DNA from: a virus
Length of the DNA stretch: 64,000 bases
Virus record (IMG/VR): IMGVR_UViG_3300025425_000010
Location: 1 to 64,000 of that record
Reading direction: 5' to 3' (one strand)
Below the pieces are notes generated by a model that had not been told where the DNA came from, searched no databases, and saw nothing but the letters and a program-made list of their open reading frames with translations. A program made the position numbers and the translations under genes. Of the stretch, positions 10,911 through 63,778 are shown one piece after another (the first letter of the stretch is position 1; each line of letters begins with the position of its first letter).

Positions 10911-11255
10911 TTAGTCGAGTATGTCCTTCAGTTGCATATCTCTAACTTTCTGTCTTATTACCTCATCACCCAAACCATCTTCTATTAATTTCAAAACTAT
11001 GTTAAGTTTGTCTTTAACTATTTTATAACGATCCGAATTAATAATTTGTGACTCAATAGAATTACCCCTCCAAAGAACTTCCATTCGAGTTTCCTGAGCA
11101 CCATCAACCGGAAAAATTATAGAATTAATATTCTTCATATAGGCATCCATAAATCCTTTTATTTTTTCCTCGGCTTTAAGACGACCAAGACCATTCACAT
11201 TTATGTATACGACAAATATTGGTTTTTCTAAATTTAACTCTGTTTCTTCATTCAT
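10911..11255 (-). CDS. Hypothetical protein with C-terminal tail
   Basis: A 114-residue protein. The body (FVVYINVNGLGRLKAEEKI) looks alpha/beta. It ends KVRDMQLKDILD, a version of the shared R-x-x-K-L-x-x-I-L tail with Gln for Lys. The start overlaps the end of 11248-11469 by eight bases. Confidence 0.6.
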   Translation of the reverse strand: MNEETELNLEKPIFVVYINVNGLGRLKAEEKIKGFMDAYMKNINSIIFPVDGAQETRMEVLWRGNSIESQIINSDRYKIVKDKLNIVLKLIEDGLGDEVIRQKVRDMQLKDILD

Positions 11256-16955: not shown

Positions 16956-17312
16956 ATGGGTATGTGTATAATAGATATAATTAATAAAGTAATATACACA
17001 CTCTTTGTGGCTGTGGGTGGTAATTTTTATTTGAATTGGCTGCTGGTAACTAACCCAACATCAAAAAATCCACTTATTAAGTGGTGTTGGGGTGTTATGT
17101 GTTGTAACAGCACATGGAATGTTAGAGATAGATATATTGATGCTTATGTTTATGGTGTAATACACATAATAGGATGTGTTTTTATGATTTATTCTGGTGG
17201 GTTTTGGACAATTTGTAATTTCGTTATAAATGTCTATCCAATACTAGTTCAGTTATATATAGGTTTCAGATGTTATCGAATAATGCAGTATAAGAAATTA
17301 CGATCTAAGTAA
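16956..17312 (+). CDS. Integral membrane protein
   Basis: A 118-residue protein with about three hydrophobic segments (residues 5-30, 65-85, 88-105). It ends with NVYPILVQLYIGFRCYR, similar to the N-x-Y-P-x-x-V-Q-x-Y-x-R signature of a bacterial membrane family that includes carotenoid acyltransferase CrtO. The function in the phage is unknown. The C-terminus overlaps the convergent gene at 17298. Confidence 0.6.
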   Translation: MGMCIIDIINKVIYTLFVAVGGNFYLNWLLVTNPTSKNPLIKWCWGVMCCNSTWNVRDRYIDAYVYGVIHIIGCVFMIYSGGFWTICNFVINVYPILVQLYIGFRCYRIMQYKKLRSK

Positions 17313-17543
17313 TTTCTTCAACCTGAGTTCACGTATCTCTTCCTTATTCATCAATTTCTTATAAGTTTCTGAACAAACAGGACATGTCGATTTCTTTCGG
17401 TGTCTATTGGATCGATTTCGATAAATGTCTGATACATCCCTAAGACATTCTGGACAGAACTTATTATCGGGATTCGTTAATATTGGTAGTGTTGTCCAAG
17501 TATAATTGATACCAAAGTGCCTTTCGAAAATTTTATAATCCAT
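17298..17543 (-). CDS. Zinc-ribbon protein with C-terminal tail
   Basis: 81 residues. Two CxxC pairs (CPECLRD about residue 30 and CPVCSETY about 53) form a zinc ribbon. It ends EEIRELRLKKLLRS, the shared tail. It is the third of three similar small zinc-ribbon genes in a row (17298, 17546, 17740), all with the tail. Probably a small nucleic-acid or protein adaptor. Confidence 0.65.
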   Translation of the reverse strand: MDYKIFERHFGINYTWTTLPILTNPDNKFCPECLRDVSDIYRNRSNRHRKKSTCPVCSETYKKLMNKEEIRELRLKKLLRS

Positions 17544-18990: not shown

Positions 18991-19257
18991 TTTTTCCAAT
19001 TTTTTGTTACGAAATTCAGATTCACTCAACAGTTCGTCTTCATATACAAATTTTGAATTAGTTGATGTATTGTCTATGGGTATGATGTGATATTCACAAC
19101 ATTTATCACCGGGGTAACATTGAGCACTATGTATGGTATATTTAAAACCACGATAAAAAACCACGGACTTTATTCCGAATTTAACACTAACATACGATTT
19201 TTCATACTCTTCATCACTACCTCCCGTACCAATAAATTTCCTTTGTAACCAACTCAC
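18979..19257 (-). CDS. Small protein with C-terminal tail
   Basis: 92 residues with SVVFYRGFKYTIHSAQCYPGD and CCEYHIIPI strands and the C-terminus SEFRNKKLEKLLK, the shared tail. Similar in layout to 19861-20091 (short beta domain, then FVYEDEL/FVYESEV, then the tail), so the two are probably distant paralogues. Overlaps 19254 by 4 bases. Confidence 0.65.
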   Translation of the reverse strand: MSWLQRKFIGTGGSDEEYEKSYVSVKFGIKSVVFYRGFKYTIHSAQCYPGDKCCEYHIIPIDNTSTNSKFVYEDELLSESEFRNKKLEKLLK

Positions 19258-19874
19258 TTTTTGAGTATGCTATTTAATTTAACATCTCTCATAACTGCTT
19301 TCAACCAACCTTCTGATGGTTTTGGTTCTTCACCATCTACGTCCAATACCCACATATCACCTTCTTTAAAATGATCACACCCATTGGCGTTATATTTACC
19401 AGAAGTTAAACTAGTTTCATCAAATATATCAGCATAACATCCATAATCGGTGGATTCCACGGTGTAGTTGGAGTACCCTCGATCCTGTGAGTAATATCTT
19501 GAGCAATCTTCACAACTTTTTAACGGAGTATTGTTTAATAAATCGATATCGATTTTTATTTGCTCGATTGGATTTATGTTTGATAACTTATCTCTCAATT
19601 TTTTGATGAATAAGATTTTGACTTCTTCATCAACAATTATCGGGGTTTGTAATCTATCCACGGTGTGTATTTCGGTACATAGTGCTCCATTATATTCGGA
19701 AACAGATGCTATGGATTTATACTCATATCTACTCCACCCAGTACCTACACATAAATAACATGACCAAAGACCTTCTTCCAAAGTATCTAGTTCGAATTGA
19801 ACATTGACAGTAGGGTAACCATTTTTAGATGATAAACCCTTTCCCTTTACTCTCTTTGCCTTAATTACTTTCAT
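19254..19874 (-). CDS. Riboflavin-kinase-like domain with Cys-rich extension and C-terminal tail
   Basis: 206 residues. The first 110 match the riboflavin kinase fold: VKGKGLSSKNGYPTVNVQF aligns with the G-x-G...G-[FY]-P-T-x-N motif, and EIHTVDR...VDEEVKILFIKKLRD with the C-terminal strands and helix; the catalytic Glu region is not clear. Residues 115-190 add a Cys-rich segment (CEDCSRYY, YGCYAD, NGCDHF) that could bind zinc. It ends VMRDVKLNSILKK, the shared tail. It may bind flavin or a nucleotide without being a kinase. Confidence 0.6.
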   Translation of the reverse strand: MKVIKAKRVKGKGLSSKNGYPTVNVQFELDTLEEGLWSCYLCVGTGWSRYEYKSIASVSEYNGALCTEIHTVDRLQTPIIVDEEVKILFIKKLRDKLSNINPIEQIKIDIDLLNNTPLKSCEDCSRYYSQDRGYSNYTVESTDYGCYADIFDETSLTSGKYNANGCDHFKEGDMWVLDVDGEEPKPSEGWLKAVMRDVKLNSILKK

Positions 19875-34665: not shown

Positions 34666-36555
34666 TTAATTTGTTAATAATTCAAATTTCATTTTACCAC
34701 AATCATATATTCTTAGGTGTCCTGACTCTTTCATATATTGTGATTCCGTCATACTCACTTCTAATTTTAATTTGGATTTCCGGTATGAGGATTTGTGTTT
34801 TCTTTTCCCATTAATTATGTAGGAATAATCTGGTTTGGATTCAGATATTTTATCGAATCCCAGTTTTTTATATAGGTTACCGTTACTCCAGCTCATATCG
34901 GCATAACTTATAATACGTTCAGCTTTATTCATATCTATGAAATGTTTGAGTAGTTTTGATGCACCACCAACTATAGTATGTTCCGATTTATTACAGAAAC
35001 GTGAAAGATTCCACCCACTTTCTAACATTTTTTTGCGGCCTTCTGATTTATCGAATGTCATTATACTAACCAACTCACCATCACAAATTAACCCCAGTGA
35101 TTTCTTAATAGTCTTGTTATATCCCTGTATATGGTTGTTATTCAAGAATTCACGTATGATATTGTTATCGAATAATTCGATAATATCACATTTCCTGGCA
35201 AATATTCGGGTTGTTGTCTTGATTAACATATTGGATATCATTGACTTTTGTATAACATTCTTATATATCCACTCATCTTCCCATATATGTATTATGCGTA
35301 TGTCCCTATCTAGAAAATGTTTAGTCTTTTTTTGGTGATAGTTCCTGTCCTTATTCGCCTCTGAATGCCAGTATAATCCATTATACTCAAAACCTATTTT
35401 AAGTGCTGGTAGGTAAATATCTATCTCCAAACCATCACGATATGATTGTATGATTTCACCGTCATAAATTGATGATATAAATTCAAATAGTTCCTGTTCT
35501 CTGATGGATATAGTATTCTTAATAGGATGGCACACCGTACACATTGGTAAATTTTGTTTTTTTCTACTGAAATAGTTATCAGTGTGTATTTCAAAATTGT
35601 GTTCCTTATCACAACGAAAAAGAGAAATTCTACTTCCTATATAGGAAATATATACATCATCACTACCTATTATGGTATTTTCTTTACGGAAAATATCACT
35701 TGATGTGTTGTTTGTTGTGCCAAATTTTTCTACATTATTTACTTCTCGTATATTTTTAATATCGTTGTTCTGTATTGGATATTCAAATCCATACCTTTCT
35801 AGATTTGTTACACGTATCCGTTTCTTTATGATGTCTGACTTTAATGGGTTATCTACATTATAATTACTCAGTAGTGTTTCTTTGGATTTTTTCTGTATCT
35901 CATTGGATAATAGTGGTGATCTATATCCATACCTTTCTAAATTGGTTTCAATAATCTTTTGCTTGACCTCATCGGATTTTGATGGGGTTTCAAAACCATA
36001 CCTTTCTAGATTAGTTTTCTTAGATTTATCTCTAACTACATCAGATTGTAGTGACCACTCAACACCATATTTACCCAGGTTAGTTTTTTTCACTTTGTCT
36101 TTATATTCATCTGTTTTAGTGAAATTATCAACACCATACCTTTCTAGATTAGTTTCAATTATTTTATCCTTCACCATATCACTCTGAAACGAGTGACTAA
36201 CTCCATACCTTTCTACATTTGTATTTATTCGATTTTTTTTAACAGATTCTAATTGTGATATGTTGTTAGCACCAGTAGTTTCCCTGAGGATTTGTCTTCT
36301 TTTAACATCACCACATTTATGAGAACAACAGAACAAACCCCCTTTTAAAATGCTTCTATTGTATAATTTGTATGTGATGTCTACATCATTCTCACAAATA
36401 TCACACTTGGCTCTTATAATTGAATTTGATCCGTGTGTGAGTTCTTCGACTTTAACTTCGATAATATCACCAGAAACAACAATATATCCGATATTATTAA
36501 AATGTTTTTTGTTTTGTGGGAATATCTTAATGTGTATTGTTTTGGTTAATATCAT
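34666..36555 (-). CDS. Repeat-containing Vsr-like (Hef-type) homing endonuclease, copy 2
   Basis: 629 residues, same architecture as 1786-3729: Cys-rich region (CDICENDVDIT...C), about eight to nine repeats such as ERYGVDNFTKTDEYKDKVKKT (about 95-270), CTVCHPI knuckle, nuclease core (DGLEIDIYLP, GFEYNGLYWHSE, IIHIWEDEW) and the acetyltransferase-like C-terminus (NHIQGYN, SRFCNKS, ISYADMSWS). It is divergent from copy 3, which starts 112 bases away. Confidence 0.85.
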   Translation of the reverse strand: MILTKTIHIKIFPQNKKHFNNIGYIVVSGDIIEVKVEELTHGSNSIIRAKCDICENDVDITYKLYNRSILKGGLFCCSHKCGDVKRRQILRETTGANNISQLESVKKNRINTNVERYGVSHSFQSDMVKDKIIETNLERYGVDNFTKTDEYKDKVKKTNLGKYGVEWSLQSDVVRDKSKKTNLERYGFETPSKSDEVKQKIIETNLERYGYRSPLLSNEIQKKSKETLLSNYNVDNPLKSDIIKKRIRVTNLERYGFEYPIQNNDIKNIREVNNVEKFGTTNNTSSDIFRKENTIIGSDDVYISYIGSRISLFRCDKEHNFEIHTDNYFSRKKQNLPMCTVCHPIKNTISIREQELFEFISSIYDGEIIQSYRDGLEIDIYLPALKIGFEYNGLYWHSEANKDRNYHQKKTKHFLDRDIRIIHIWEDEWIYKNVIQKSMISNMLIKTTTRIFARKCDIIELFDNNIIREFLNNNHIQGYNKTIKKSLGLICDGELVSIMTFDKSEGRKKMLESGWNLSRFCNKSEHTIVGGASKLLKHFIDMNKAERIISYADMSWSNGNLYKKLGFDKISESKPDYSYIINGKRKHKSSYRKSKLKLEVSMTESQYMKESGHLRIYDCGKMKFELLTN

Positions 36556-36666: not shown

Positions 36667-38553
36667 ATGATATTAGATGAATATGTGAAAGTAGAGTTGG
36701 TGAATAGGAACTATAAAAAATTATCAAGTAAGTATGGTCTCAAAGATGTATCAGTTGGTGATATTGTTGAAATACCAATTAATAAATTATCTAAATCATC
36801 ACACTACATGGTTAATGTATCCTGTGATTATTGTGATATTAATTTAGAGGTTCCGTTTAAACGGTATAATAAGAGTACTGAGGTTATTGATAAATACTCA
36901 TGTTCGAATAAGGATTGCTCAAACCAAAAGATTAAAGATGTCTGTCAAGAAAAATATGGTGTCGATAATCCCTTCCAATCCAAAAATGTTAAAAAGAAGA
37001 TTAAAGAAACCATGTTGTATAAATATGGAGTTGAACACCCAATGTTTTTAGAAGAAACAAAAGGGAAAATAAAAGATACTTGTTTGGAAAGGTATGGTGT
37101 TGATAACTATACTAAAACCGATGAATATAAAGTAAAAACAAAGGAAACAAATTTGGAGAGATATGGTGTGGAGTGGGCTATGCAATCGGATGTTATCAAA
37201 GAACGATCCAAGAAGTCCAGTCTGAAGATATATGGAGTAGACCACCCACACAAATCGAAAGTGGTAAGGGATAAATTTATAGAAACCAACATGAATAATT
37301 GTGGGTTTCCTACAAATCTAATGTGTCCAGATAATATTGAACAAGTTAAACATACAAACTTGGATAGATATGGGGTTGAGTATCCACTACAGTCGGAAGA
37401 AATTAAAGATAAAATAAAAATTACTTGTTTAGAAAGATATGGGGTTGATAATCCATTAAAAAGTAAATTGGTTAGAGATAAAATGTATAATACAAATATT
37501 GAAAGATATGGTAATAAATATGTAAGTATGAGTCCTGTTGTACGTAGTAATTTTAAAATGTGTTGTGATGATAATTATATTAAATACCTCGGTAATAATT
37601 ATTCTTCATTTAAATGTTATAAAGGTCATAATTTCAAAATATCAACAAATAATTACTACGGTAGGATGAGTTATGGAACTGTACTTTGTACTGAATGTTA
37701 TCCAATCGGTGATACTGTTTCTATAAATGAGCAAGAAGTTTATAATTATATCAAAGAAATTTATGATGGTGAAATCATACAATCATATCGTGATGGTTTG
37801 GAGATAGATATTTACCTACCAGCACTTAAAATAGGTTTTGAGTATAATGGATTATACTGGCATTCGGATAAATACAAAGATAAAAACTACCATTCGGATA
37901 AAACCAAGTTTTTCAAAGAACGAGGAATACGTATAATACACATCTGGGAAGATGATTGTGTGTTGAAACGTAATATTATAAAGAGTCAAATATCCAATAT
38001 GGTAGGTTTAGTTGTTAATAAGGTATATGGTAGGACGTGTGTAATAAAGGAGTTAGTGGATATTAAGATGTGTAGGAAGTTTTTGGATGATAACCATATA
38101 CAAGGATTTGTACCATCCACACTGAAACTTGGACTATTTTATAGTGGTGAATTGGTTAGTATAATGACATTTGATAAGTTTGAAGGGCGGAAGAAAATGG
38201 AAGAAAATGGGTGGACATTATCCCGGTTTTGTTCTAAAATTGATTATAGTGTAATTGGTGGGTTTACAAAATTACTCAATAATTTTATAAAAATATATAA
38301 CCCAATTAGAATTGTGAGTTATTCTGATAATGATTGGAGTCTGGGTGGTATATATGAAACATCTGGTTTCTCAAAAGTGTCTGATGTACCCATAGACTAT
38401 AAATACATAATAGATGGTGTTCGTGTGAATAAGTCAAAATTTAGAAAATCTAACTTACCAGGGGATTTATCGGAATCTCAGTACATGTCTAGTAATGGTA
38501 TTCTACGAGTCTATAATTGTGGTAAAAGTAAATATGAGATGATATTATCTTAA
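36667..38553 (+). CDS. Repeat-containing Vsr-like (Hef-type) homing endonuclease, copy 3
   Basis: 628 residues: CDYCDINLEV...C...C region, about nine repeats (LERYGVDNPLKSKLVRDKM and the like), CTECYPI knuckle, the same nuclease core with IWEDDC in place of IWEDDW, and the C-terminal region to NCGKSKYEM. A terminator at 38558 ends it. The back-to-back pair with copy 2 suggests duplication with inversion or two separate insertions. Confidence 0.85.
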   Translation: MILDEYVKVELVNRNYKKLSSKYGLKDVSVGDIVEIPINKLSKSSHYMVNVSCDYCDINLEVPFKRYNKSTEVIDKYSCSNKDCSNQKIKDVCQEKYGVDNPFQSKNVKKKIKETMLYKYGVEHPMFLEETKGKIKDTCLERYGVDNYTKTDEYKVKTKETNLERYGVEWAMQSDVIKERSKKSSLKIYGVDHPHKSKVVRDKFIETNMNNCGFPTNLMCPDNIEQVKHTNLDRYGVEYPLQSEEIKDKIKITCLERYGVDNPLKSKLVRDKMYNTNIERYGNKYVSMSPVVRSNFKMCCDDNYIKYLGNNYSSFKCYKGHNFKISTNNYYGRMSYGTVLCTECYPIGDTVSINEQEVYNYIKEIYDGEIIQSYRDGLEIDIYLPALKIGFEYNGLYWHSDKYKDKNYHSDKTKFFKERGIRIIHIWEDDCVLKRNIIKSQISNMVGLVVNKVYGRTCVIKELVDIKMCRKFLDDNHIQGFVPSTLKLGLFYSGELVSIMTFDKFEGRKKMEENGWTLSRFCSKIDYSVIGGFTKLLNNFIKIYNPIRIVSYSDNDWSLGGIYETSGFSKVSDVPIDYKYIIDGVRVNKSKFRKSNLPGDLSESQYMSSNGILRVYNCGKSKYEMILS

Positions 38554-40187: not shown

Positions 40188-41870
40188 ATGATATTTGATA
40201 ATAGTATTGAAATTAAAATAACTAAGCGTAATATTGAACACTTCTCTATGTACTACAGAGATATAAAATTAAGGGATATAATTGATGTTTCTCCGGAAAA
40301 TTTACAGAAAAATAGTAATATAAGAATAAATGTTTTATGTGATGTGTGTGGTATCTCTAATAACATTAAGAACCAGGCGTATACTAAGAATATAAATTCA
40401 TGTAAATCTAATCCAATTTATACATGTGATAAATGTTCACATATTAAAAATAAAGCCAGTTGTTTGGAGGTTTATGGTGAGGACCATTATTCTAAAACTG
40501 ATGAGTGGAAGGATCGGACAAGAAAGACTTGTTTGGAAAAATATGGTGAGGATCATTATTCTAAAACTGATGAGTGGTCTAAGAGATTTGAAGAGACTTG
40601 TTTGGAGAAGTATGGGGTTGAAAACCCATTTATGGATTCTAAAAAAATAAGAGAATCTTTCAATAGTAAGTATGGAGTTGACCACCCATCACAGGTTACT
40701 GAAATACATGAACGTATTAAGAGTAGTAATAAAACATCAACCGGGTATGAGAGTCCGTTATCCTCCCCAGAGATAAGGAGTCGTATTAATACTACAATGT
40801 TGCGTAAGTATGGTTCTATAATACCATATAAGTCGGAAGATATTAGGTCAAGGTTAGTGGTGTGTAAGAATAAAAATTATTTAAATTATATAAGTGATAA
40901 TATATCACTGTTTAAGTGTGATAATGGATGTGATCACAATTTTGAAATGGAATCTTATATGTATCATAATCGTTTACGTGGTGGTGTTCATTTATGTACA
41001 GTATGTAACCCAATTGGGGATTCGGTGTCAATAAAGGAGAAGGAGTTGTTTGAGTATATATCATCAATATATAGTGGTGAAATTATAAGATCATATCGAG
41101 ATGGTTTGGAGATTGATATCTATTTGCCGGAATTGAATATTGGATTTGAATTTAATGGATTGTACTGGCACTCTGAAAAATATAAAGATAAAAATTACCA
41201 CCTAGATAAAACTAACCATTTCAAGGAAAAGGGTATTCGTATAATACACATCTGGGAAGATGATTGGGTGAATAAGACAGATATACTTAAAAGCCAAATA
41301 TCTAATATGGTTGGTGAGACAAATACTAGGATATTTGCTAGAAAATGTGAAGTCCGTGTGGTAGGTAGTAAATTATCTAATATTTTTCTATATGATAACC
41401 ACATACAGGGTGGTGATAAGAGTGTTGTTAAATTGGGTTTGTTTTGTGATGGTGATATGGTATCTATTATGACATTTAATAAATTCGAGGGTAGAAACAA
41501 GATGGGTTTTGGTGAATGGAACCTGTCGAGGTTTTGTAATGTGAAAAATTATTCGGTTGTTGGTGGATCGTCTAAATTATTATCATATTTCATAAAGGAG
41601 AATGTAGTTTCCCGTATAATAAGTTATGCTGATGCTGATTGGTCAGTTGGTAATTTATATAAGGTAATGTGTTTTGAAAAATCTCATCATAGTAACCCAG
41701 ATTATAAATATGTTATTGATGGTGTTCGTAATCACAAACAGAATTATAAGAAGAAGAACCTTGGTATATCAGGTCAAGCCATAACCGAGTCAGTATATAT
41801 GAGAAGTAAAGGTTATTACCGAATATGGGATTGTGGGAAAATAAAATTTACAAAACATGTATCTACATAA
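40188..41870 (+). CDS. Repeat-containing Vsr-like (Hef-type) homing endonuclease, copy 4
   Basis: 560 residues, the shortest full copy, with about six repeats (two nearly identical GEDHYSKTDEW units at about 95-140). CDVCG...CDKC at the N-terminus, CTVCNPI knuckle, nuclease core (DGLEIDIYLPELNIGFEFNG, IIHIWEDDW) and C-terminus DCGKIKF. The lower repeat number with an intact nuclease shows the array length varies freely. Confidence 0.85.
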   Translation: MIFDNSIEIKITKRNIEHFSMYYRDIKLRDIIDVSPENLQKNSNIRINVLCDVCGISNNIKNQAYTKNINSCKSNPIYTCDKCSHIKNKASCLEVYGEDHYSKTDEWKDRTRKTCLEKYGEDHYSKTDEWSKRFEETCLEKYGVENPFMDSKKIRESFNSKYGVDHPSQVTEIHERIKSSNKTSTGYESPLSSPEIRSRINTTMLRKYGSIIPYKSEDIRSRLVVCKNKNYLNYISDNISLFKCDNGCDHNFEMESYMYHNRLRGGVHLCTVCNPIGDSVSIKEKELFEYISSIYSGEIIRSYRDGLEIDIYLPELNIGFEFNGLYWHSEKYKDKNYHLDKTNHFKEKGIRIIHIWEDDWVNKTDILKSQISNMVGETNTRIFARKCEVRVVGSKLSNIFLYDNHIQGGDKSVVKLGLFCDGDMVSIMTFNKFEGRNKMGFGEWNLSRFCNVKNYSVVGGSSKLLSYFIKENVVSRIISYADADWSVGNLYKVMCFEKSHHSNPDYKYVIDGVRNHKQNYKKKNLGISGQAITESVYMRSKGYYRIWDCGKIKFTKHVST

Positions 41871-48685: not shown

Positions 48686-50512
48686 ATGTTACTTAATTTA
48701 AAAATGAAAATCATTGTAAATCCGAATTCAAGGATATATTATAATTCTATTGGTTATGAGTGTGTTAATTATGAGGAGATTGAAATCAATATCATTGAAT
48801 TACCGAAAGGGTCTAATATTGAAATTGATGTATGTTGTGATATATGTAATTTTGGTAAAAAATTAAAATATAATAGTTATTATAAAAATACTAATGGAAA
48901 TACTACTATTTATACTTGTAAGAAATGTTCACATATAAAATCGAAAAAAACCTGTTTAGAACGATATGGTGATGAAAATTATACAAATAAGGAACAATCG
49001 AAAAAAACCTGTTTAGAACGATATGGTGATGAAAATTATACAAATAGGAAACAATCGAAAAAAACCTGTTTAGAACGATATGGTGTGGATAATGTCTCTA
49101 AATTGGATAATGTGAAAAAAAAGAAGATAGAATCGAATCTCATTAATTGGGGTGTTGAGAATGTTTTCCAATCAAATATCATAAAACTTAAAATATACAA
49201 TACTATACAAGACAAATATGGAACAGATACATATATAAAATCATTGGATTTTAAACAGAAATATATGAAATTCTGTGATAAACATGGAGTTGATCATTAT
49301 TCACAAACAGATGAATTCAAACGGAAGTTCGAAAAAACATGTTTATATAGATGGGGGTATAAGACTAATTTAATGAATGATGATATTAAAAAAAGAATTG
49401 CTTTGACAAATACAATGAAATATGGATTTGAAAATCACATGATGAATACAACTCAATCATTTAAGGTAGCACAGACCATGATAAATAAGAGGAAAACTTA
49501 TTATGAATCGTTGGGGTATGAAATGATTGATTATAATTTCGAAAGTAGAAATTATACATTAATAAAAAAAGATTGTGGTCATGAGTTTAATATAACACAT
49601 GATTTATTTAGGAGTCGTATAAAATATGGAAATAATTCTTGTTTACAATGTTATCCAAAAAATGATATGTCTTCTATTAAAGAGAAAAAATTGGGGGAAT
49701 TTATCAGTACTATTTCAGATAACGTAATTTATAATTCGAGGAAAATATTAAATGGTAAAGAATTGGATGCTTATTTACCAAATAATGGATTGGCTATTGA
49801 GTTTAATGGACTTTATTGGCATTCTGATGTTTTTAAGGGAAAATCATATCATTATGATAAAACTATATCATGTAATGATATAGGGGTTGATCTCATGCAT
49901 ATTTGGGAAGATGATTGGGATAATAGAACTGAAATCGTTAAATCAATAATAAGATATAGAACTGGTAATATTCATAATAAGATATATGCGAGGAAATGTG
50001 AAATTATTGAAATATCAAATAAAGAGAGTAACGTTTTTTTAAATAAAAATCATATACAGGGTGGTGTGAATGCTGGTAAATGTATATCTCTTAAATATAA
50101 GGGTGATATTGTATCTGTCATGACTTTTGGAAAAAGGAATATAAATTCAAAGCCAAACACTGAATTATTGAGATTTTGTAATAGGATAAATTGTAATGTT
50201 GTTGGATCATCTTCTAAAATGTTTAAACATTTTATAAAGAATAATGATTTTTCGAAAATAATTTCGTACTCGGATATTTCACTATTTAATGGGGGTGTAT
50301 ATGAGAAATTGGGATTTGAAAATTGTGGAAAGACTTCCTTGAATTATTATTGGACAGATTTATATAAAAGGTATCATAGGTTCAATTTTAATAAGAAAAA
50401 ATTAATAAAAAGGGGATATGATAAAAACAAAACGGAAAATGAAATAATGTCTTCATTGGGATATTATAAAATATGGTCTTGTGGTCAAATAAGATGGGAA
50501 TATAGTAAATGA
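48686..50512 (+). CDS. Repeat-containing Vsr-like (Hef-type) homing endonuclease, copy 5
   Basis: 608 residues, the most diverged copy. N-terminal CDICNFG...CKKC, about eight repeats, the first three nearly identical at DNA level (57-60 bases each, about 48945-49090). Nuclease core differs slightly (GKELDAYLPNNGLAIEFNGLYWHSD, LMHIWEDDW). The start at MLLNLKMKII aligns in length with the other copies. It lies between the two topoisomerase genes and overlaps the relic at 50509. Confidence 0.85.
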   Translation: MLLNLKMKIIVNPNSRIYYNSIGYECVNYEEIEINIIELPKGSNIEIDVCCDICNFGKKLKYNSYYKNTNGNTTIYTCKKCSHIKSKKTCLERYGDENYTNKEQSKKTCLERYGDENYTNRKQSKKTCLERYGVDNVSKLDNVKKKKIESNLINWGVENVFQSNIIKLKIYNTIQDKYGTDTYIKSLDFKQKYMKFCDKHGVDHYSQTDEFKRKFEKTCLYRWGYKTNLMNDDIKKRIALTNTMKYGFENHMMNTTQSFKVAQTMINKRKTYYESLGYEMIDYNFESRNYTLIKKDCGHEFNITHDLFRSRIKYGNNSCLQCYPKNDMSSIKEKKLGEFISTISDNVIYNSRKILNGKELDAYLPNNGLAIEFNGLYWHSDVFKGKSYHYDKTISCNDIGVDLMHIWEDDWDNRTEIVKSIIRYRTGNIHNKIYARKCEIIEISNKESNVFLNKNHIQGGVNAGKCISLKYKGDIVSVMTFGKRNINSKPNTELLRFCNRINCNVVGSSSKMFKHFIKNNDFSKIISYSDISLFNGGVYEKLGFENCGKTSLNYYWTDLYKRYHRFNFNKKKLIKRGYDKNKTENEIMSSLGYYKIWSCGQIRWEYSK

Positions 50513-50724
50513 ACTACAGTATTGTGTATAATGGACTACAACATTATGAATCGTGTGACTTTTTCGGAGGTGATACTGGATTTAAAAAAAGGAAAATTCT
50601 AGATAATATAAAAAGAGAATATTGTAATAATAATAATATACGATTGGAGGTAATATCATATTATTATAATAGCATTAAAAGAATTAAAGAAAAATTAATT
50701 AAGATATTTAATGAAAAAAATTGA
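50509..50724 (+). CDS. Truncated homing endonuclease (nuclease core only)
   Basis: 71 residues. YNGLQHYESCDFFGGDTGFKK and LDNIKREYCNNNNIRLEVISYY match the last part of Vsr/DUF559-type endonucleases (Y-N-G-x-Q-H-Y, F-F-G-G, R-D-x-I-K-x-x-Y-C). The rest of the gene is missing. It overlaps copy 5 by 4 bases and the topoisomerase B gene by 14, marking this junction as a repeated insertion site. Confidence 0.65.
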   Translation: MNYSIVYNGLQHYESCDFFGGDTGFKKRKILDNIKREYCNNNNIRLEVISYYYNSIKRIKEKLIKIFNEKN

Positions 50725-52555
50725 AGACAGATATAAAAAATTAGATGAAATATCACATCTACTATTAAGACCATCCATGTATATTGGATCAATTAAAACA
50801 CAAACTTTAAAGAAATATGTTTTGGATGATGGTAAAATGATTCAAAAAGAAATTACCTATAGTCCTGGATTTTTAAAATTATTTGATGAAATTATAATGA
50901 ACTCAATCGATGAGAGTAAGAGAATTCGAACCAAACTGAATATTATAAAAATAAATATAGATTTGGATACTAATAATATATCTATATATGATAATGGTGG
51001 AATGCCTGTCGTAAAACACAAGGAATATAAGGAATGGATACCTGAACTTGTATTTTCTTCATTTAGGGCTGGATCCAACTTTAATGAAGATGAATCAAGA
51101 ACTTGGGCAGGAACTAACGGTGTTGGATCAGTTATTACTAATGTATTTTCCAAAAAATTCAAAATAACAACATGTGATGGTAAGAATAAATTCTCACAAA
51201 CATTCTCAGATAACATGGGAAAGAGGTCAAAACCATCAGTATCCAAGTCCAAAAAGGGACACACTGAAATATCATATATTACAGATTTTGAAAAATTCGG
51301 AATGAAGAAGATTGACCAATATCATTTACTTATTATACAAAAAAGGATAATTGATATTGCTGGATGTAATCCCAAACTCAAAATATATTTCAATGGTGAT
51401 CTATTTCCAATAAAAACCTTTGAGGATTATATAAAGTTATATAATAGTGATGTGTTATTTGAGGAGAATAAACAGAAAACATGGTCTATCGGGTTGTGTG
51501 TATCGGGAGAAGGATTTCAACAAATATCATTCGTCAATTCCATTGAAACGTATGATGGTGGGTCACATGTGGATTATGTATTGAACCAGATATTATCAAA
51601 GGTTCGAGAACATTTCAAGAAAAAATACAAAGTCGATGTAAAGCCATCTGAAATAAAAAATCATCTAATGTTTTTTCTTGATGCGGAGGTTATTAATCCA
51701 AGTTTTAATTCACAAACAAAAGAGAAATTAATTACAGAGTCTAAAGATTTTGGAACAGAATATATAGTTAGTGATAAGTTAATTAAATCAATACTTGATT
51801 CAGAGATAGTTGAATCAATACTAGACTGGATATCACGTAAGAAAATAGCTGATGAAAATAAATTAGCTAGGAATTTGAATAAGAGTCTTCTTAAGAAGAA
51901 AGTAGATAAACTCATCGATGCTAAGGGTAAAACTCGTTGGAAATGTAGTCTTGGAATTTTTGAGGGGGATTCAGCCACCTCGGCATTTCGTAAATATAGA
52001 ACACCCGAAACGATGGGTGCTTTCGCCTTGAAGGGTAAGTTTATGAATGTTACTGACATATCGAGTGATAAATTCGTTAATAATGCCGAGGTAGTCAATT
52101 TGATGGGTGCTATTGGGTTGAAATTGGGTAAAGAGCCAGAACTTAAAAATCTTAGGTATGGTAGAATATTGATATATTCTGATGCTGATGTTGATGGTAG
52201 TTCGATTACAGCACTACTTATTAACTTTTTTTACCGTTACTGGCCCAAACTATTTGACATGAATATGATATATAAAGTAGAAACTCCCATAGTAGTTGCT
52301 AGTAAGAAAGGTAGTAAAACGAAATCTTTATTCTACACACAAGATGAATACAAATCTTGGTTGAAGAAGGTTAATATTTCGAACTGGGAGGTTAAGTATA
52401 AGAAGGGTCTGGCTGCATTGGTTGATGATGAGTATAATGAAATTATAAACAAACCTCGATTAGTCAGAATAGATTCAACTAAGAAGTCAGAGGATTATTT
52501 GGACATTTGGTTCGGTAAAGACTCTGACCTTAGAAAAAAAGAAATGTTGAAATAA
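50711..52555 (+). CDS. Type II topoisomerase subunit B (T4 gp39/GyrB-like)
   Basis: 614 residues. GHKL ATPase motifs: DEIIMNSIDES (about 55-65), IYDNGGMPV (about 95-103) and TNGVGSVITNVFS (about 136-148). TOPRIM motifs: GIFEGDSATSAF (about 415-426) and YSDADVDGSSI (about 488-498). ATP-driven partner of subunit A. The stop overlaps the next gene by one base, at the head of a plus-strand operon reaching 54793. Confidence 0.93.
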   Translation: MKKIEDRYKKLDEISHLLLRPSMYIGSIKTQTLKKYVLDDGKMIQKEITYSPGFLKLFDEIIMNSIDESKRIRTKLNIIKINIDLDTNNISIYDNGGMPVVKHKEYKEWIPELVFSSFRAGSNFNEDESRTWAGTNGVGSVITNVFSKKFKITTCDGKNKFSQTFSDNMGKRSKPSVSKSKKGHTEISYITDFEKFGMKKIDQYHLLIIQKRIIDIAGCNPKLKIYFNGDLFPIKTFEDYIKLYNSDVLFEENKQKTWSIGLCVSGEGFQQISFVNSIETYDGGSHVDYVLNQILSKVREHFKKKYKVDVKPSEIKNHLMFFLDAEVINPSFNSQTKEKLITESKDFGTEYIVSDKLIKSILDSEIVESILDWISRKKIADENKLARNLNKSLLKKKVDKLIDAKGKTRWKCSLGIFEGDSATSAFRKYRTPETMGAFALKGKFMNVTDISSDKFVNNAEVVNLMGAIGLKLGKEPELKNLRYGRILIYSDADVDGSSITALLINFFYRYWPKLFDMNMIYKVETPIVVASKKGSKTKSLFYTQDEYKSWLKKVNISNWEVKYKKGLAALVDDEYNEIINKPRLVRIDSTKKSEDYLDIWFGKDSDLRKKEMLK

Positions 52556-53004
52556 TGTCATTACTACACCATGGCGGTTCATTTTTTTCTCCGCTAGTAC
52601 ATAATAATCAATATGAGTTTGACCTTATCGATACGGATAATGATATTTTTATATCTAGTATGTGGCCGAATAAGATAAAGTATGTGTCTAGAAAAAAAAG
52701 AGACCGAATAAAACTATCATACCTCATAAAAGAGAAAGATTTACAAAAATCACCAATATCAACTCTATTTAAGAATATATTTTCTGGATTATTAAGCATA
52801 TGTGATGATAAAGGATTAGTAATTCATCATGAATTATTATACATGGAGTTCCATAGTTCCGAAGTGAATATGTTTGGTGATCATATTGGTATTCTGACCT
52901 TTGATGTAATCTTCGAAATAACGAAAACTGAATTAATTGATTTAGATTATAAACTTAATCGTGAAAAACTCATAAGAAAGTATAAATTAGATAAGTTAAT
53001 TTGA
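52555..53004 (+). CDS. Hypothetical protein with C-terminal tail
   Basis: 149 residues starting MSLLHHGGSFFSPLVHNNQYEF. Ends KLIRKYKLDKLI, the shared tail. Directly coupled to topoisomerase B (one-base overlap). No domain recognised. Confidence 0.6.
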   Translation: MSLLHHGGSFFSPLVHNNQYEFDLIDTDNDIFISSMWPNKIKYVSRKKRDRIKLSYLIKEKDLQKSPISTLFKNIFSGLLSICDDKGLVIHHELLYMEFHSSEVNMFGDHIGILTFDVIFEITKTELIDLDYKLNREKLIRKYKLDKLI

Positions 53005-53014
53005 TTATCACTAA

Positions 53015-53335
53015 ATGATCAGAGACCGACAGTGGAGAAGACATATTAAAGAGATGTCACAAAGGCGTAATTATACGGTATATAGACGCTTTTATAACTA
53101 TTATGATATTAATGGTGTTAGGCGAGAACACCCTCATTGGTTTGAGTGTATAGGTGATAAATCCTTTCATGGTAGTCCACACAGTAGGTATAATGTTAAA
53201 TATTCACCAAATACACTTGGGAAATATAGAGATTATAAAAAAAAGAATGGTGGGTTTTCTACTGGGTTGAGGGAGAAAGATAAAATTATGTATAAGAATA
53301 TTATAGAAGACATACTTTATGAAATGGGAAGATAG
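53015..53335 (+). CDS. Basic hypothetical protein
   Basis: 106 residues, rich in Arg, Lys and Tyr (RDRQWRRHIKEMSQRRNYTVYRRFYNYY). Nucleic-acid contact is possible from composition. The end overlaps the next gene by 17 bases. Confidence 0.55.
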   Translation: MIRDRQWRRHIKEMSQRRNYTVYRRFYNYYDINGVRREHPHWFECIGDKSFHGSPHSRYNVKYSPNTLGKYRDYKKKNGGFSTGLREKDKIMYKNIIEDILYEMGR

Positions 53336-53864
53336 ATATGTAGATGGACCTGATTACACCATTAAAGACGATGTTGTTTTTGTTCTTAAGAATTTCGTAC
53401 AGATAACCTTGTTCCGTAAAATTGATGATAAACGTGTTCAGGTTTCTTTTGATAGAAGAGTAGTAAATTTTATTAAGAGAGAGATTTTACACCTTATTAA
53501 ACACGATGTAGAATTTGAATTTATATCACCTATGATGTTTGATCCTAAGTTTATGAGAAGAGATTATGATATTATATACAGGGAAAATTTGAGAAATATG
53601 TTAGAGAACTATCGATTCAAAACATTCTTTCTATTTTTCAAAAAGCATAATATTAATTTTATGTCAAAATTAGTAATTTATGTAAATGAAACAGACACTC
53701 ATCAAATATTTGATGAGGAATTTGATAAGGTCAACAAGTCAGTACAAAAAGCCCATCAGGATTGGTTTTATAATGGTCCTGTTACCTATTTGGATTCGGA
53801 AGAAATCCGTGATTTTTTTTCATCGTTTAAACGGAATATGAAATTAACACAGATACTTTTATGA
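53319..53864 (+). CDS. Hypothetical protein with C-terminal tail
   Basis: 181 residues. Body with VVFVLKNFVQITLFRKI strands and helices, unknown fold. Ends FKRNMKLTQILL, the shared tail, with its last codons overlapping the degenerate terminase by 4 bases, so the two are probably translated together. Confidence 0.6.
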   Translation: MKWEDRYVDGPDYTIKDDVVFVLKNFVQITLFRKIDDKRVQVSFDRRVVNFIKREILHLIKHDVEFEFISPMMFDPKFMRRDYDIIYRENLRNMLENYRFKTFFLFFKKHNINFMSKLVIYVNETDTHQIFDEEFDKVNKSVQKAHQDWFYNGPVTYLDSEEIRDFFSSFKRNMKLTQILL

Positions 53865-54793
53865 AATGGAATACGAATTTAGTTGAGTTATGGAATGATG
53901 ATATTCGGTTGCGAAGAGATGGAAAACTTCGTGATTTACTCGATAAGGGTAGTCTTGAATTACCCAAGGGTAGTCCATACATCGACCAAACCACTTTAAG
54001 ATCAACAGATAATTTCGAATATAATGAGTTGGAAGTTGATGAGATGCTTAAAGTATTTAGTAATTTCGATAGATTGATTGAGAACCATATAACCATAGAA
54101 AATTCTAAAATTAAACTAAGGGGATATCAGAAGGATATGCTTGATAAATTACACTTATCTTCGTTTGAAATTGTATGTCATTCTCGACAACTTGGTATGT
54201 CTATGATGTTGAGGTTATATATATTACGTTGTGTGTGTGTGGGAAAAGATGTTGTGGTTATATGTAATAATAATTTTGTGAGAGTTGATGATATAAAGAA
54301 ATTTAAAGAATTATTAGAAAGCCTACCATATTACATGCAACCGGCTTTGAAATCTCGTAGTAAGAATAATTTCATATTTTATAAATCGAAGGTTGTTTTT
54401 ACGAACAGTACCCTTGGGCATGAGGAAACGACTGTTATGATATTTTCAGATGCTGCTTTCAATACTAAATTTCAACTACAATTTGAGAAAACCGTGACAA
54501 TTAGAAGGGTTTCTATTAAAAAAGATTTACAAACAATGGTATTTTCCGGATCGAACATAGGTTCGTATTTCAATAAGTTTTTCCTTTTTGAAAAAAATAA
54601 TCCGTGGAATACTAGCTATTCAAATTTCAATAGAACAATTTTAACACATAACGTAGTTACTCGTAAAGAAAATTGGGAAGATAATCTACGTGGAATCATT
54701 GGTGATAAACAGTTTCTCATTCAATATTCTTGTTGTATGGATGAAAAAATATTAAATAGATACGATGTGCTTAGAAATATCTTAAACAAATGA
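53861..54793 (+). CDS. Degenerate terminase-like ATPase domain without nuclease
   Basis: 310 residues. The region 90-250 aligns by eye with T4 gp17: LRGYQKDMLDKL, HSRQLGMSM in place of SRQLGKTT, LPYYMQPAL, and MIFSDAAF in place of MIYIDECAF, then MVFSGSNIGSYFNKF (coupling motif region). The Walker A Lys is Met and the catalytic Glu is Ala, so ATP hydrolysis is not expected. The C-terminal nuclease domain is absent. It is a pseudo-enzyme paralogue of the packaging motor rather than the active TerL. Confidence 0.7.
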   Translation: MKWNTNLVELWNDDIRLRRDGKLRDLLDKGSLELPKGSPYIDQTTLRSTDNFEYNELEVDEMLKVFSNFDRLIENHITIENSKIKLRGYQKDMLDKLHLSSFEIVCHSRQLGMSMMLRLYILRCVCVGKDVVVICNNNFVRVDDIKKFKELLESLPYYMQPALKSRSKNNFIFYKSKVVFTNSTLGHEETTVMIFSDAAFNTKFQLQFEKTVTIRRVSIKKDLQTMVFSGSNIGSYFNKFFLFEKNNPWNTSYSNFNRTILTHNVVTRKENWEDNLRGIIGDKQFLIQYSCCMDEKILNRYDVLRNILNK

Positions 54794-54950: not shown

Positions 54951-55928
54951 ATGTTACTTAATTTAATATTAGATGGAAACTACATTTTATCAAAACTAGT
55001 GTTCACATTACACAAAAATAACCTATTATATGGAGCTCTTGACCAAGCGTTGGAGAATTCATTTAAAAACTACCGTAAATGGTATCCATTTCATCAAATC
55101 TACTTGGTTAGTGATTCAAAAGAGAAGTCATGGAGAAAACAACTTAATAACAAATATAAAGATACTCGTAAGAAAGATTCCGCCATCGATTGGGGGTTTG
55201 TATATGATACATATAATGCCTTTAAAGAAAGGCGTAATTTGATAAAAGTACTTGAATATCCTAGAGTTGAGGGTGATGATTGGATTGCTTTGATTTGTGA
55301 AAAAACTAACCTAAGAGGAGAATCAAATCTTATTGTAACAAATGACCATGATATAAAACAATTATTAAGATTTAATTTGAATGAGGGTTGGATGAATTTT
55401 ATGTCAAATGAAATGTATAATAATAAGAATATTTTCATGCCTAAGAACTACAAGATGTTGTTATCACAAGTCCGTGATAAGCCAAATGAAGATATATTCA
55501 ATATGAATGATGATTCTACATTTTTAAAATTATGTGAAGATTTATCAAAGAAATACAAAACAAACGAAGTTGATTGGACTCAATCACTAGTCACTAAGAT
55601 AATTTCTGGTGATGTATCTGATAATATAAAATCGGTGTATGTTTCTAAAACCTCCACTGGGAAGGTGAGAGGTATCGGTGCAACTGGTGCTCAGACTATA
55701 TTTGGTCAGTATATTAGAGAGTTTGGTGAAATAGATATGGAAGACCCAGACTTGGCTGAGAACATAGGTGACATAATCTGTGAGAAGAAGAAGATATCAA
55801 AAACTGAGATTGTTAATATATCAAAAAGAGTTGAAGAGAACAGGAAAATGGTTCAGTTGAGAACTGAATTCTTCCCAGTTGATATTAGAGATGTGTTAGA
55901 AGAAAAATGGACCAATGTAGATGCTTAA
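54951..55928 (+). CDS. 5'-3' flap exonuclease, T4 RNase H-like
   Basis: 325 residues. Acidic metal-binding residues of the FEN/PIN-like fold are visible: LDGNYIL (Asp8), YKDTRK, VEGDDWIALI (about 104-113), VTNDHDIKQL (about 125-134) and ISGDVSDNIKSV (about 216-227), followed by the helix-hairpin-helix GIGATGAQTIF. It removes RNA primers and flaps during replication. Overlaps 55921 by 8 bases. Confidence 0.85.
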   Translation: MLLNLILDGNYILSKLVFTLHKNNLLYGALDQALENSFKNYRKWYPFHQIYLVSDSKEKSWRKQLNNKYKDTRKKDSAIDWGFVYDTYNAFKERRNLIKVLEYPRVEGDDWIALICEKTNLRGESNLIVTNDHDIKQLLRFNLNEGWMNFMSNEMYNNKNIFMPKNYKMLLSQVRDKPNEDIFNMNDDSTFLKLCEDLSKKYKTNEVDWTQSLVTKIISGDVSDNIKSVYVSKTSTGKVRGIGATGAQTIFGQYIREFGEIDMEDPDLAENIGDIICEKKKISKTEIVNISKRVEENRKMVQLRTEFFPVDIRDVLEEKWTNVDA

Positions 55929-56247
55929 CATTGATAGCTGGGAACAATTTGTCACACAATTGTATGGACTCACCAATACTAAATTGATTAAATTTACAGC
56001 ATATTATATAAGTTCATCAAGTGGTTTTACTAAAGGTAATATGATTCTACTACATAGTAAATTTGATATGATTAGAAAGACTCCTATACCACTAGATGGT
56101 GAGGTGTTGGAGAGTTCTGAGTTGTTAGAATGGGATTCTTTTATAACATATGACCAACTTTTTGATATTTTTCCAATAGAATTCCTTGAAAAGTATGATA
56201 TGATGATGGTACGTAACTGGAAGATTAAAAAACTTATTGATGAGTAA
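55921..56247 (+). CDS. Hypothetical protein with C-terminal tail
   Basis: 108 residues. Ends MMMVRNWKIKKLIDE, the shared tail. It lies between the flap nuclease and a candidate clamp-loader subunit, with overlaps on both sides, so it may act in replication. No domain recognised. Confidence 0.6.
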   Translation: MLNIDSWEQFVTQLYGLTNTKLIKFTAYYISSSSGFTKGNMILLHSKFDMIRKTPIPLDGEVLESSELLEWDSFITYDQLFDIFPIEFLEKYDMMMVRNWKIKKLIDE

Positions 56248-59083: not shown

Positions 59084-59191
59084 ATGAGTTCGTTCTTATA
59101 TGCTCGTTCATCGAATAATTATAAGGGTAATAGTACGAACGCTAGTAGATTGAGAGCTATTGTGAATGATATTAAGATAATAGACGTTTAA
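59084..59191 (+). CDS. Very small hypothetical protein
   Basis: 35 residues (MSSFLYARSSNNYKGN...IVNDIKIIDV) after the lipoprotein. It could be a decayed end of that gene. The stop touches the end of the convergent gene at 59188. Low support. Confidence 0.3.
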   Translation: MSSFLYARSSNNYKGNSTNASRLRAIVNDIKIIDV

Positions 59192-59703
59192 ATAATCTTG
59201 TCAAGTTTATTGTTTCTGCTTGATTTAAGGTCTATACATCCATCCCACTCATTAACATTTTCTATTTTACTCATTAATATTTGTTTATCATTAACATAGT
59301 CTTTTATTTTCTCACTTATTAGTTTTTGGAAATCCGTATCGTCTGTATATTTTGATGAGTTGCTAATAACTTTAGACGTAAATAATCCTATTTTAATGAT
59401 ACTAAACGTATATTTTGTGTAGACCATCCATAAATCATCACACGAATCGCCTTTTATTTTCTTAAATCTATTTTTGAGAATTATGGCTTGTAAAAACAGG
59501 AAAGGTGTTCCGTAACCTTTGGGTCCAGCAGGTAAGATGGCAATACCAGTTAATATGAGAAATATTACAAGATATGATATAATACCTACAATTAACTGAG
59601 ATGCTAATGGTATTTCTAGTTGAGCCATTAGATAACTAATCCATATTATGTGTGTTAAATAGTATAGTAGGGATGTGAGCATATGTATGTTTAAATCTTT
59701 CAT
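59188..59703 (-). CDS. Membrane protein with C-terminal tail
   Basis: 171 residues with hydrophobic segments at about 8-28 and 33-58 and a cytoplasmic helical domain. It ends SSRNNKLDKII, the shared tail. It is the only membrane protein with this ending, which would place the tail in the cytoplasm. Confidence 0.6.
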   Translation of the reverse strand: MKDLNIHMLTSLLYYLTHIIWISYLMAQLEIPLASQLIVGIISYLVIFLILTGIAILPAGPKGYGTPFLFLQAIILKNRFKKIKGDSCDDLWMVYTKYTFSIIKIGLFTSKVISNSSKYTDDTDFQKLISEKIKDYVNDKQILMSKIENVNEWDGCIDLKSSRNNKLDKII

Positions 59704-62295: not shown

Positions 62296-63444
62296 ATGTT
62301 TAGATTGAGAATTCCTACATATGATGATGCTAAAAATATAGTCAGTGAAAAGGGTAATACTATTTTTTACGAAATTAAACACAAGATAAATGGTGTTAAT
62401 TTATCAGTATTTAATTATAGATATCCATCATACACTGATTTTTTAGATAATGATGTGGATTTCCGAGAAATGAGGGGGCTTACCTTTGTTTTTAATGATG
62501 ATGGGTCGTATAAAAGGTACGTATTGTTGAAAAAGTTCTGGAACATAAATCAAGTCCCGGAGTCAATGTATGATATGGTTAAGGATTATAAACTACTATC
62601 ATCATATAATAAAGAGGATGGTTCTGTTATATCTTTTATAAAAATAAATGAGGAGATTATACCAAAGTCAAAAATGGGATTTGATAATGATCAAGTAATA
62701 AAATCAGGTATTGTGTATAATTCGAATAGAAATATCAAACAATTTGTGGAATATTGCTTCGATAATGATATTGTATCTATCTGGGAATATGTTTCGTTTA
62801 AAAATAAAATAGTACTTGATTATGATAAAGATAACTTGATATTATTGAGATTGAGGGATAATAAAACCGGTGATTATATAGATATAGAGGAATATCGAAA
62901 TATGGGGTTTGATGTCGCTGAACAAGACAATATCACTATTGAAGATGCTATGTTAACATTTCCAAACATTGTTGATAAAGAGGGTACAGTTTTTACTTTA
63001 CAATCTCCTAATGGTGAAAAGGTAATGGTGAAGAAGAAAACTGATTGGTATTTACTAAGGCATAATTTATTAACAAATGATATTAACAAAGAGAACTATG
63101 TTATACACTCTATTTTAGACAACACCATTGATGATATAATATCTCAGTTAGAAACAACCGATATTACTAAAAGAGAATTTATAGAAGATATACAAAATAT
63201 TGTTAATTTCAAAATATCTATGACGGTGCGTGAAGTGAAAGAATTTCTCAAAAAATACGAGGGTGATAAGAAGTCGTTTTCCTTAGAATATGGAAAGCAT
63301 CCATTATTTCACTTTGCTATTGGTTATGTTAATGGTATCGACCTTTTTGAGATGGTAACACTTTTCTTTTCTAAGAAGACAAGTAAATTACACAATGCTC
63401 AGAAATGGTTAGAAAAATCAAGAGATGAATATGAGAAAAGCTAA
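62296..63444 (+). CDS. rnlA: T4 Rnl1-type RNA ligase
   Basis: 382 residues. Motif I SYNKEDGSVISFI (Lys near 111), motif Ia-like EMRGLTFVFNDDGS, motif IV KEGTVFTL and motif V VMVKKKTDWYLLRH. The order and length match T4 RnlA. It seals breaks in RNA, classically tRNA cut by host anticodon nucleases. The 2H phosphoesterase and CCA-like enzyme in the window could supply companion repair steps. Confidence 0.88.
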   Translation: MFRLRIPTYDDAKNIVSEKGNTIFYEIKHKINGVNLSVFNYRYPSYTDFLDNDVDFREMRGLTFVFNDDGSYKRYVLLKKFWNINQVPESMYDMVKDYKLLSSYNKEDGSVISFIKINEEIIPKSKMGFDNDQVIKSGIVYNSNRNIKQFVEYCFDNDIVSIWEYVSFKNKIVLDYDKDNLILLRLRDNKTGDYIDIEEYRNMGFDVAEQDNITIEDAMLTFPNIVDKEGTVFTLQSPNGEKVMVKKKTDWYLLRHNLLTNDINKENYVIHSILDNTIDDIISQLETTDITKREFIEDIQNIVNFKISMTVREVKEFLKKYEGDKKSFSLEYGKHPLFHFAIGYVNGIDLFEMVTLFFSKKTSKLHNAQKWLEKSRDEYEKS

Positions 63445-63778
63445 TTTCAATTTGATAACTTCCGAAACCTGTAAAGATTGTAGGAATTTCATTTGGTATA
63501 AATCCAATCGGGATTTCAATGTACCATATAATCATTTTGAGGAAGGTAGAATTAACAGTGGGATAGTTGAAATAGTTTGTGGTGATGTGTTTGGTATGGC
63601 TCAAATGGATTTCCAAATATACTCATCTGTTGTGGAATGTTCAGAAGTGATGTTATTCAATGATAAGTTATCACCTGTATTTTTATCGAGGGATCTTCTT
63701 GAATTAAATAGTAGTCATTTTACAGATATTACTAAAGTGTATCTACGTAACCATAAGTTAGACCAGTTGTTGAGGTAA
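63425..63778 (+). CDS. Hypothetical protein with C-terminal tail
   Basis: 117 residues with CKDCRNF near residue 16 and other Cys. Ends KVYLRNHKLDQLLR, the shared tail. Overlaps the RNA ligase gene by 20 bases, so it is coexpressed with it. Confidence 0.6.
   Translation: MNMRKANFNLITSETCKDCRNFIWYKSNRDFNVPYNHFEEGRINSGIVEIVCGDVFGMAQMDFQIYSSVVECSEVMLFNDKLSPVFLSRDLLELNSSHFTDITKVYLRNHKLDQLLR

Follow-up and report, generated by a model that had tools for sequence, protein, structure and literature searches.

The large terminase subunit (TerL) is among the most conserved phage proteins and a standard marker gene, and immune sensors of bacteria target it. Its T4 type (gp17; PF03237 Terminase_6N plus PF17289 Terminase_6C) has a length of 600-770 aa. 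T4 motors are known to tolerate ATPase-dead subunits: doped with gp17 Q163A, the mixed motor still runs, although DNA is engaged less often and pauses are more frequent (PMC8589836). In some terminases the Walker A lysine is found not at its usual place but where the P-loop begins, according to a passage of PMC5727402 that refers to Mitchell and Rao 2004; the TerL of LR756508 (KARQMGIST) is an example. Our search for a published precedent of dead or duplicated terminases, which covered open-licence papers, found none. A further kind of unusual TerL is the split-intein TerL, for example of the AceL-TerL type. The TerL of LR756501 (735 kb) appears to be broken in this way, inside Walker A (SRQVGK / CIDFTSVLT ... 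YYANDILNLN / TVSASIV), and Campylobacter phage CP81 terL2 has an intein-like sequence right behind its Walker B DE (IDEC VAGDTKITV). We had considered terL2 as a known ATPase-only TerL and rejected it, since by this end it looks like a split-intein half rather than another terminase.

Here we describe a 310-aa ORF of a huge phage which resembles these proteins and yet differs from each of them. It starts with ATG, overlaps the ORF upstream by ATGA, and lies in the window, by which we mean the whole stretch of 64,000 nucleotides analysed (positions 1 to 64,000 of the IMG/VR virus record IMGVR_UViG_3300025425_000010, which is linear and has 73,747 bases). With the T4-type TerL it has in common the ATPase-domain fold, the order of the motifs, the adenine-motif Q143, the P-loop residues R162, Q163 and G165 followed by a Ser behind the lysine position, and the LPxxxQP segment. 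Unlike the T4-type TerL, it has lost K166, D255 and E256, has no nuclease or translocation domain, and gives no match in a Pfam search; in relatives, moreover, the dead copy and terL are at separate loci. The gp17 Q163A subunit is likewise ATPase-dead, but it is a full-length protein with a single engineered change, whereas the copy in the window is natural, truncated and highly diverged. Split-intein halves are likewise short ORFs with a part of the TerL ATPase domain, but their motifs are intact and intein sequence stands at their end or start; our ORF has neither. Finally, LR756501 and LR756508, huge phages which also have a TerL, encode ATPase-only paralogues (390 aa, KSRQMGIT, and 288 aa, KSRQLGIT, respectively). 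These too have the ATPase domain without a nuclease, but with a lysine at the P-loop start and an intact DE, both absent from the window protein, and they may be active. In the TerL of LR756508 itself, a TAG codon lies in frame ahead of the P-loop, which suggests TAG read-through or recoding in this phage. We are highly confident that the ORF in the window derives from TerL, is catalytically dead and is under selection.

Table 1. Coordinates of the features discussed (positions in the window, unless a locus is named)
Feature	Position	Strand	Basis or remark
Pseudo-TerL, dead ATPase-only terminase paralogue, 310 aa	53861..54793	+	sequence, profile and fold matches
Walker A remnant SRQLGMSM, residues 108-115	54182..54205	+	alignment to T4 numbering
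Walker B/catalytic Glu remnant IFSDAAF, residues 194-200	54440..54460	+	alignment to T4 numbering
C-terminal segment YSCCMDEKILNRYDVLRNILNK, residues 289-310	54725..54790	+	family-specific conservation Y-C-MDE-L-K
181-aa neighbour, coupled in translation through an ATGA overlap; last residues are the shared tail RNMKLTQILL	53319..53864	+	
Large (ATPase) subunit of topoisomerase II; the syntenic block begins here	50711..52555	+	phrog_543, 3.6e-181
RNase H-like exonuclease gene, downstream neighbour	54951..55928	+	conserved in 4/4 slot members
phrog_3339 homing endonuclease ORFs	1786-3729, 34666-36555	-	
phrog_3339 homing endonuclease ORFs	36667-38553, 40188-41870, 48686-50512	+	
Tail-bearing ORFs	53319-53864, 52555-53004, 55921-56247, 63425-63778	+	
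Tail-bearing ORFs	10911-11255, 17298-17543, 19254-19874, 59188-59703	-	
LR756501 TerL halves	L107:1372-1917, L104:229-2496	-	~13 kb apart
ATPase-only TerL paralogue, LR756501	L099:1189-2361	-	
ATPase-only TerL paralogue, LR756508	L106:1393-2259	+	
In-frame TAG before P-loop, LR756508 TerL	L103:1300-1800		
CP81 terL2	L192:2339-3055		
CRISPR-like mini-array	L005:7037-7339		

The ancestry can be judged in several ways. The first-pass annotation had noted terminase landmarks, and these are indeed present: RGYQ at residues 87-90, SRQLG in the Walker A remnant and LPYYMQP at residues 155-161. PHROG 5989 (terminase large subunit) matches residues 73-185 (E 4e-13), and in a phmmer search the only relevant PDB sequence match is T4 gp17 (E 5e-8, residues 75-170). 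An AlphaFold model was made from 17 aligned sequences (pLDDT 74, pTM 0.75, with low confidence past about residue 260). Compared by Foldseek, it finds T4 gp17 first (E 2e-14, TM 0.63); the top four PDB matches are gp17 structures and those that follow are mostly other terminases. A second model, whose alignment consisted of five dead homologues and held no intact TerL, again has gp17 as the first match (E 1e-12). Since gp17 comes first even then, the predicted fold is that of the TerL ATPase domain, and the sequence matches and the models together indicate that the protein shares its ancestry with a family of active enzymes.

Regarding the active site, we agree with the earlier reading in one half and disagree in the other. 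That reading was of a Lys to Met change in Walker A and a Glu to Ala change in Walker B. In T4 numbering, K166 is indeed Met (and T167 is Ser), and the catalytic Glu is indeed lost. However, a change of Glu to Ala needs a one-residue deletion; the gap-free alignment (window TVMIFSDAAFN, homologue HDVLIFDKVAFN, T4 AMIYIDECAFI) gives D255 as Ser and E256 as Asp, and the window sequence aligns to its relative L006 in the same ungapped manner (VMIFSDAAFN and VLIFDKVAFN). The pair of Walker B Asp and catalytic Glu expected of a functional TerL is thus absent from the window protein. A His precedes its P-loop motif, i.e. the shifted lysine of the 'deviant' terminases is absent as well. The ORF stops where the nuclease domain would start, and an RNase H-like nuclease domain is absent at its C-terminus. 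With both catalytic elements lost, the nuclease absent and a terminase fold predicted, the original description of the ORF as a pseudo-terminase stands.

A scan of viral contigs with the window protein alone returned no relatives. They were found through its neighbours instead: the topoisomerase II large subunit led to L005 and L006, and an alignment of the exonuclease led to 62 loci. We use 'slot' for the position that directly precedes the RNase H-like exonuclease gene. A dead TerL copy occupies it in four contigs, namely the window (G000) and those of L005 (G001), L006 (G002) and L022 (G007), and the ATGA overlap with the preceding ORF is found in the first three. Their Walker A motifs read SRQLGMS, ARQFGSS, SRQIGIS and ARGVGVT, and their Walker B motifs FSDAAF, IDDMAY, FDKVAF and VDQFAY, in the same order. 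K166 and E256 are absent in all four, and none has a Walker A lysine at either the canonical or the shifted position. The first-pass annotation had proposed to look for the same K-to-M and E-to-A changes in related phages; the two residues are lost there as well, but the replacements differ (Met, Ser, Ile and Val for the lysine; Asp, Asp, Lys and Gln for the glutamate). Homologues with intact Walker A and B, which would speak against the whole idea, do not occur in this slot among the four members. A tree built from ATPase domains places these members on long branches in a group of their own, which excludes every intact TerL (support 95-99). Judging by these alignments, catalytic loss extends across orthologues. 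In most other exonuclease loci different genes occupy the slot; the pseudo-TerL gene is therefore accessory, and its function dispensable for the clade.

As to the surroundings, the operon does include a topoisomerase gene as first annotated, in the form of the large (ATPase) subunit of a phage topoisomerase II. Two of the five phrog_3339 homing endonuclease ORFs in the 64 kb window adjoin the two topoisomerase genes. The 181-aa neighbour gave no meaningful match to any known family, and PADLOC gave no matches. One of the relatives, the phage contig L005, carries besides its dead terminase a CRISPR-like mini-array, in which a 36-39 nt repeat (GGTGTTCCTACCTTTGATTTTAGATGTTGTTCCACC) occurs five times with a spacing of exactly 66 nt.

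It could be argued that such a gene is a pseudogene in decay and has no function at all. The protein has lost its two active-site motifs as well as a domain, and the slot members share 25-33% of their residues. Every frame is nevertheless open, in the same slot of four divergent contigs, while a simulation of neutral decay (100 runs) yields 10.7 stops per lineage on average and at least 5 in every run; neutral decay is therefore ruled out at such identity. The termini hold family-specific invariant residues, the ATGA overlap is kept in three phages, and codon position 2 is conserved above positions 1 and 3. We judged purifying selection by this codon-position identity and by the simulation, and on both counts the sequences are under it, in agreement with the first-pass annotation. 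Contradicted by the simulation, the pseudogene is rejected as an explanation and we regard it as highly improbable.

What has been conserved is instructive. Over the three closest of the four slot members, 22 of 82 residues at the ends (27%; residues 1-60 and 289-310) are invariant, compared with 24 of 228 in the core (10%; p 0.0009). Intact TerLs (n=3) have the reverse pattern, with 73 of 222 core positions invariant and 10 of 68 at the ends. On the basis of three sequences, constraint has apparently moved from the ATPase core to both ends, and this shift favours reuse for another task.

The C-terminal end may be relevant in a further respect. Many small and otherwise dissimilar ORFs of these phages, falling into 41 sequence clusters, end in a tail R-[DE]-x-[KQ]-[IL]-x-x-[IL]-[IL] at most 4 residues from the stop. 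It is found in 14 of 95 ORFs in the record of the window (0.8 expected) and 100 of 706 in the exonuclease loci (6.2 expected), and also in L005, L006, L007 and L015-L070; there are none among 382 ORFs in TerL loci and none among 57 in T4, PAU and other controls. The pattern had been noticed before the window protein was scored against it. Among the slot proteins, those of the window (p 0.008) and L006 (p 0.0009) match, that of L005 matches weakly (p 0.04), and in that of L022 the tail is absent (p 0.13). It is possible that the tail is a common docking or sorting signal, or that its bearers are one family diverged past recognition. The matches suggest that the dead terminase became, via the tail, one of a group of proteins sharing a partner.

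An intact terL had been expected elsewhere in the genome. The 73.7 kb fragment that holds the window does not include one, but relatives do: five of them, all large (G028, G029, G031, G032 and G033; 204-476 kb), have one full TerL each (713-715 aa). Its P-loop reads SRQVGKT or SRQIGKT, its DEFAH (YLDEFAH) is intact, and none of the five has a dead copy. These TerLs are related to those of LR745206 and LR756502, phages of 634-642 kb, with one 78% identical. We attribute LR745206 and LR756502 to Al-Shayeb et al. 2020, a survey of huge phages. Outside the slot, the contig of L006 (G002) has a second short dead copy, L008 (287 aa, SRHIGIEN, FLFDMALW), which is ~34% identical to the TerL of the clade. 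A comparable short copy with a wholly degenerate P-loop spans the record end of LR756504 (636 kb), next to an intact TerL of 768 aa, so that in this second dead family an active paralogue is seen in the same genome. Both short copies cluster (support 88) and adjoin the intact TerLs of the clade in the ATPase-domain tree, which makes two or more origins of dead copies probable. As search queries, L008 and L022 each matched only themselves, and 34 TerL-bearing contigs hold no further dead copies. A second match in cyanophage S-RIM12 (E 0.001) is probably another P-loop protein.

Could the protein act on packaging itself? As a regulator or poison subunit it would join the TerL ring or sit on the portal, and slow, pause or time packaging, whether for its own phage or for a competitor in the same cell. 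Its fold and paralogy fit such a role, and by analogy with the T4 motors that contain dead subunits, a natural one could modulate the motor. The identity still seen in L008 and the pairing of dead and intact copies in LR756504 point the same way. In the slot family, however, the core, where the ring contacts are, is poorly conserved, the proteins lack the nuclease domain, to which T4 models assign the movement of DNA, and no intact TerL is seen on the contigs, which are fragments. In our opinion this role is somewhat unlikely. The poor core also bears on the idea of a decoy. Avs1-4 detect conserved features of the large terminase or portal (PMC12931631), and a pseudo-TerL might bind such TerL-sensing Avs (AVAST) receptors without forming the activating complex, and so shield the real terminase. 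The PhiV-1 TerL of the Avs3 complex (8dgc_E) is among the fold matches of the window protein, and the accessory distribution, fast divergence and repeated origin would suit an arms race. A mimic should nonetheless keep the TerL surface, and we consider a decoy quite unlikely. Both ideas are weakened by the loss of core constraint in the slot family, and to a lesser degree in the family of L008.

Two other readings would leave the protein a part of a working enzyme. It might be an ATPase with an unusual motif, with Asp in place of E256 and a lysine supplied from elsewhere; shifted-lysine terminases are real (KARQMGIST in LR756508, KSRQMGIT in LR756501), and Q143, R162, G165 and S/T167 are kept. 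Yet the lysine is at neither known position in any of the four members, Ser stands in place of the Walker B Asp in the window, and E256 is Lys or Gln in two members. Activity is thus very doubtful, and its shifted-lysine form we reject, given the His at the shifted position in the window and no lysine there in any slot member. The remaining reading is one half of a split terminase, completed through a split intein or by a separate nuclease gene, as the real cases in LR756501 and CP81 would allow. Here, the active site is dead, the C-terminus of the ORF has no intein sequence, and the four slot contigs, all fragments, hold no separate nuclease ORF. With neither intein nor complementary half, this too is rejected, and we rate it the most improbable of all.

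The explanation we prefer, to which we would assign a probability of about one half, is that a duplicated and truncated TerL, without ATP hydrolysis and nuclease, has been reused as a pseudoenzyme, a non-catalytic binding protein acting through its ends. The gene for the phage large terminase would have been duplicated and one copy truncated with loss of the nuclease; this copy would then have lost ATP hydrolysis and ceased to be a motor subunit. What remained would be an accessory binding protein on a terminase scaffold, working through its N- and C-terminal segments, co-produced with the 181-aa neighbour, to which it is translationally coupled, and probably brought to a shared partner by the C-terminal tail common to many small proteins of these phages. 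Nucleotide may still be held loosely and unhydrolysed, because the residues listed above for an active ATPase are kept; a point against is that the window and L005 proteins, with Asp for Glu, could retain a trace of activity.

More generally, and quite tentatively, huge phages may repeatedly (at least twice, in the slot family and in that of L008 and the LR756504 copy, L105) make non-catalytic pseudo-terminases that act on the packaging machine or on immune sensors, those of the slot family being addressed by the tail. A natural and selected dead copy of TerL would, if true, be a rare pseudoenzyme of the packaging system, and would offer a direct way to ask what use the packaging-ATPase fold has without ATP. 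It also means that short TerL matches are risky in marker counts, since they include dead paralogues and split-intein halves.
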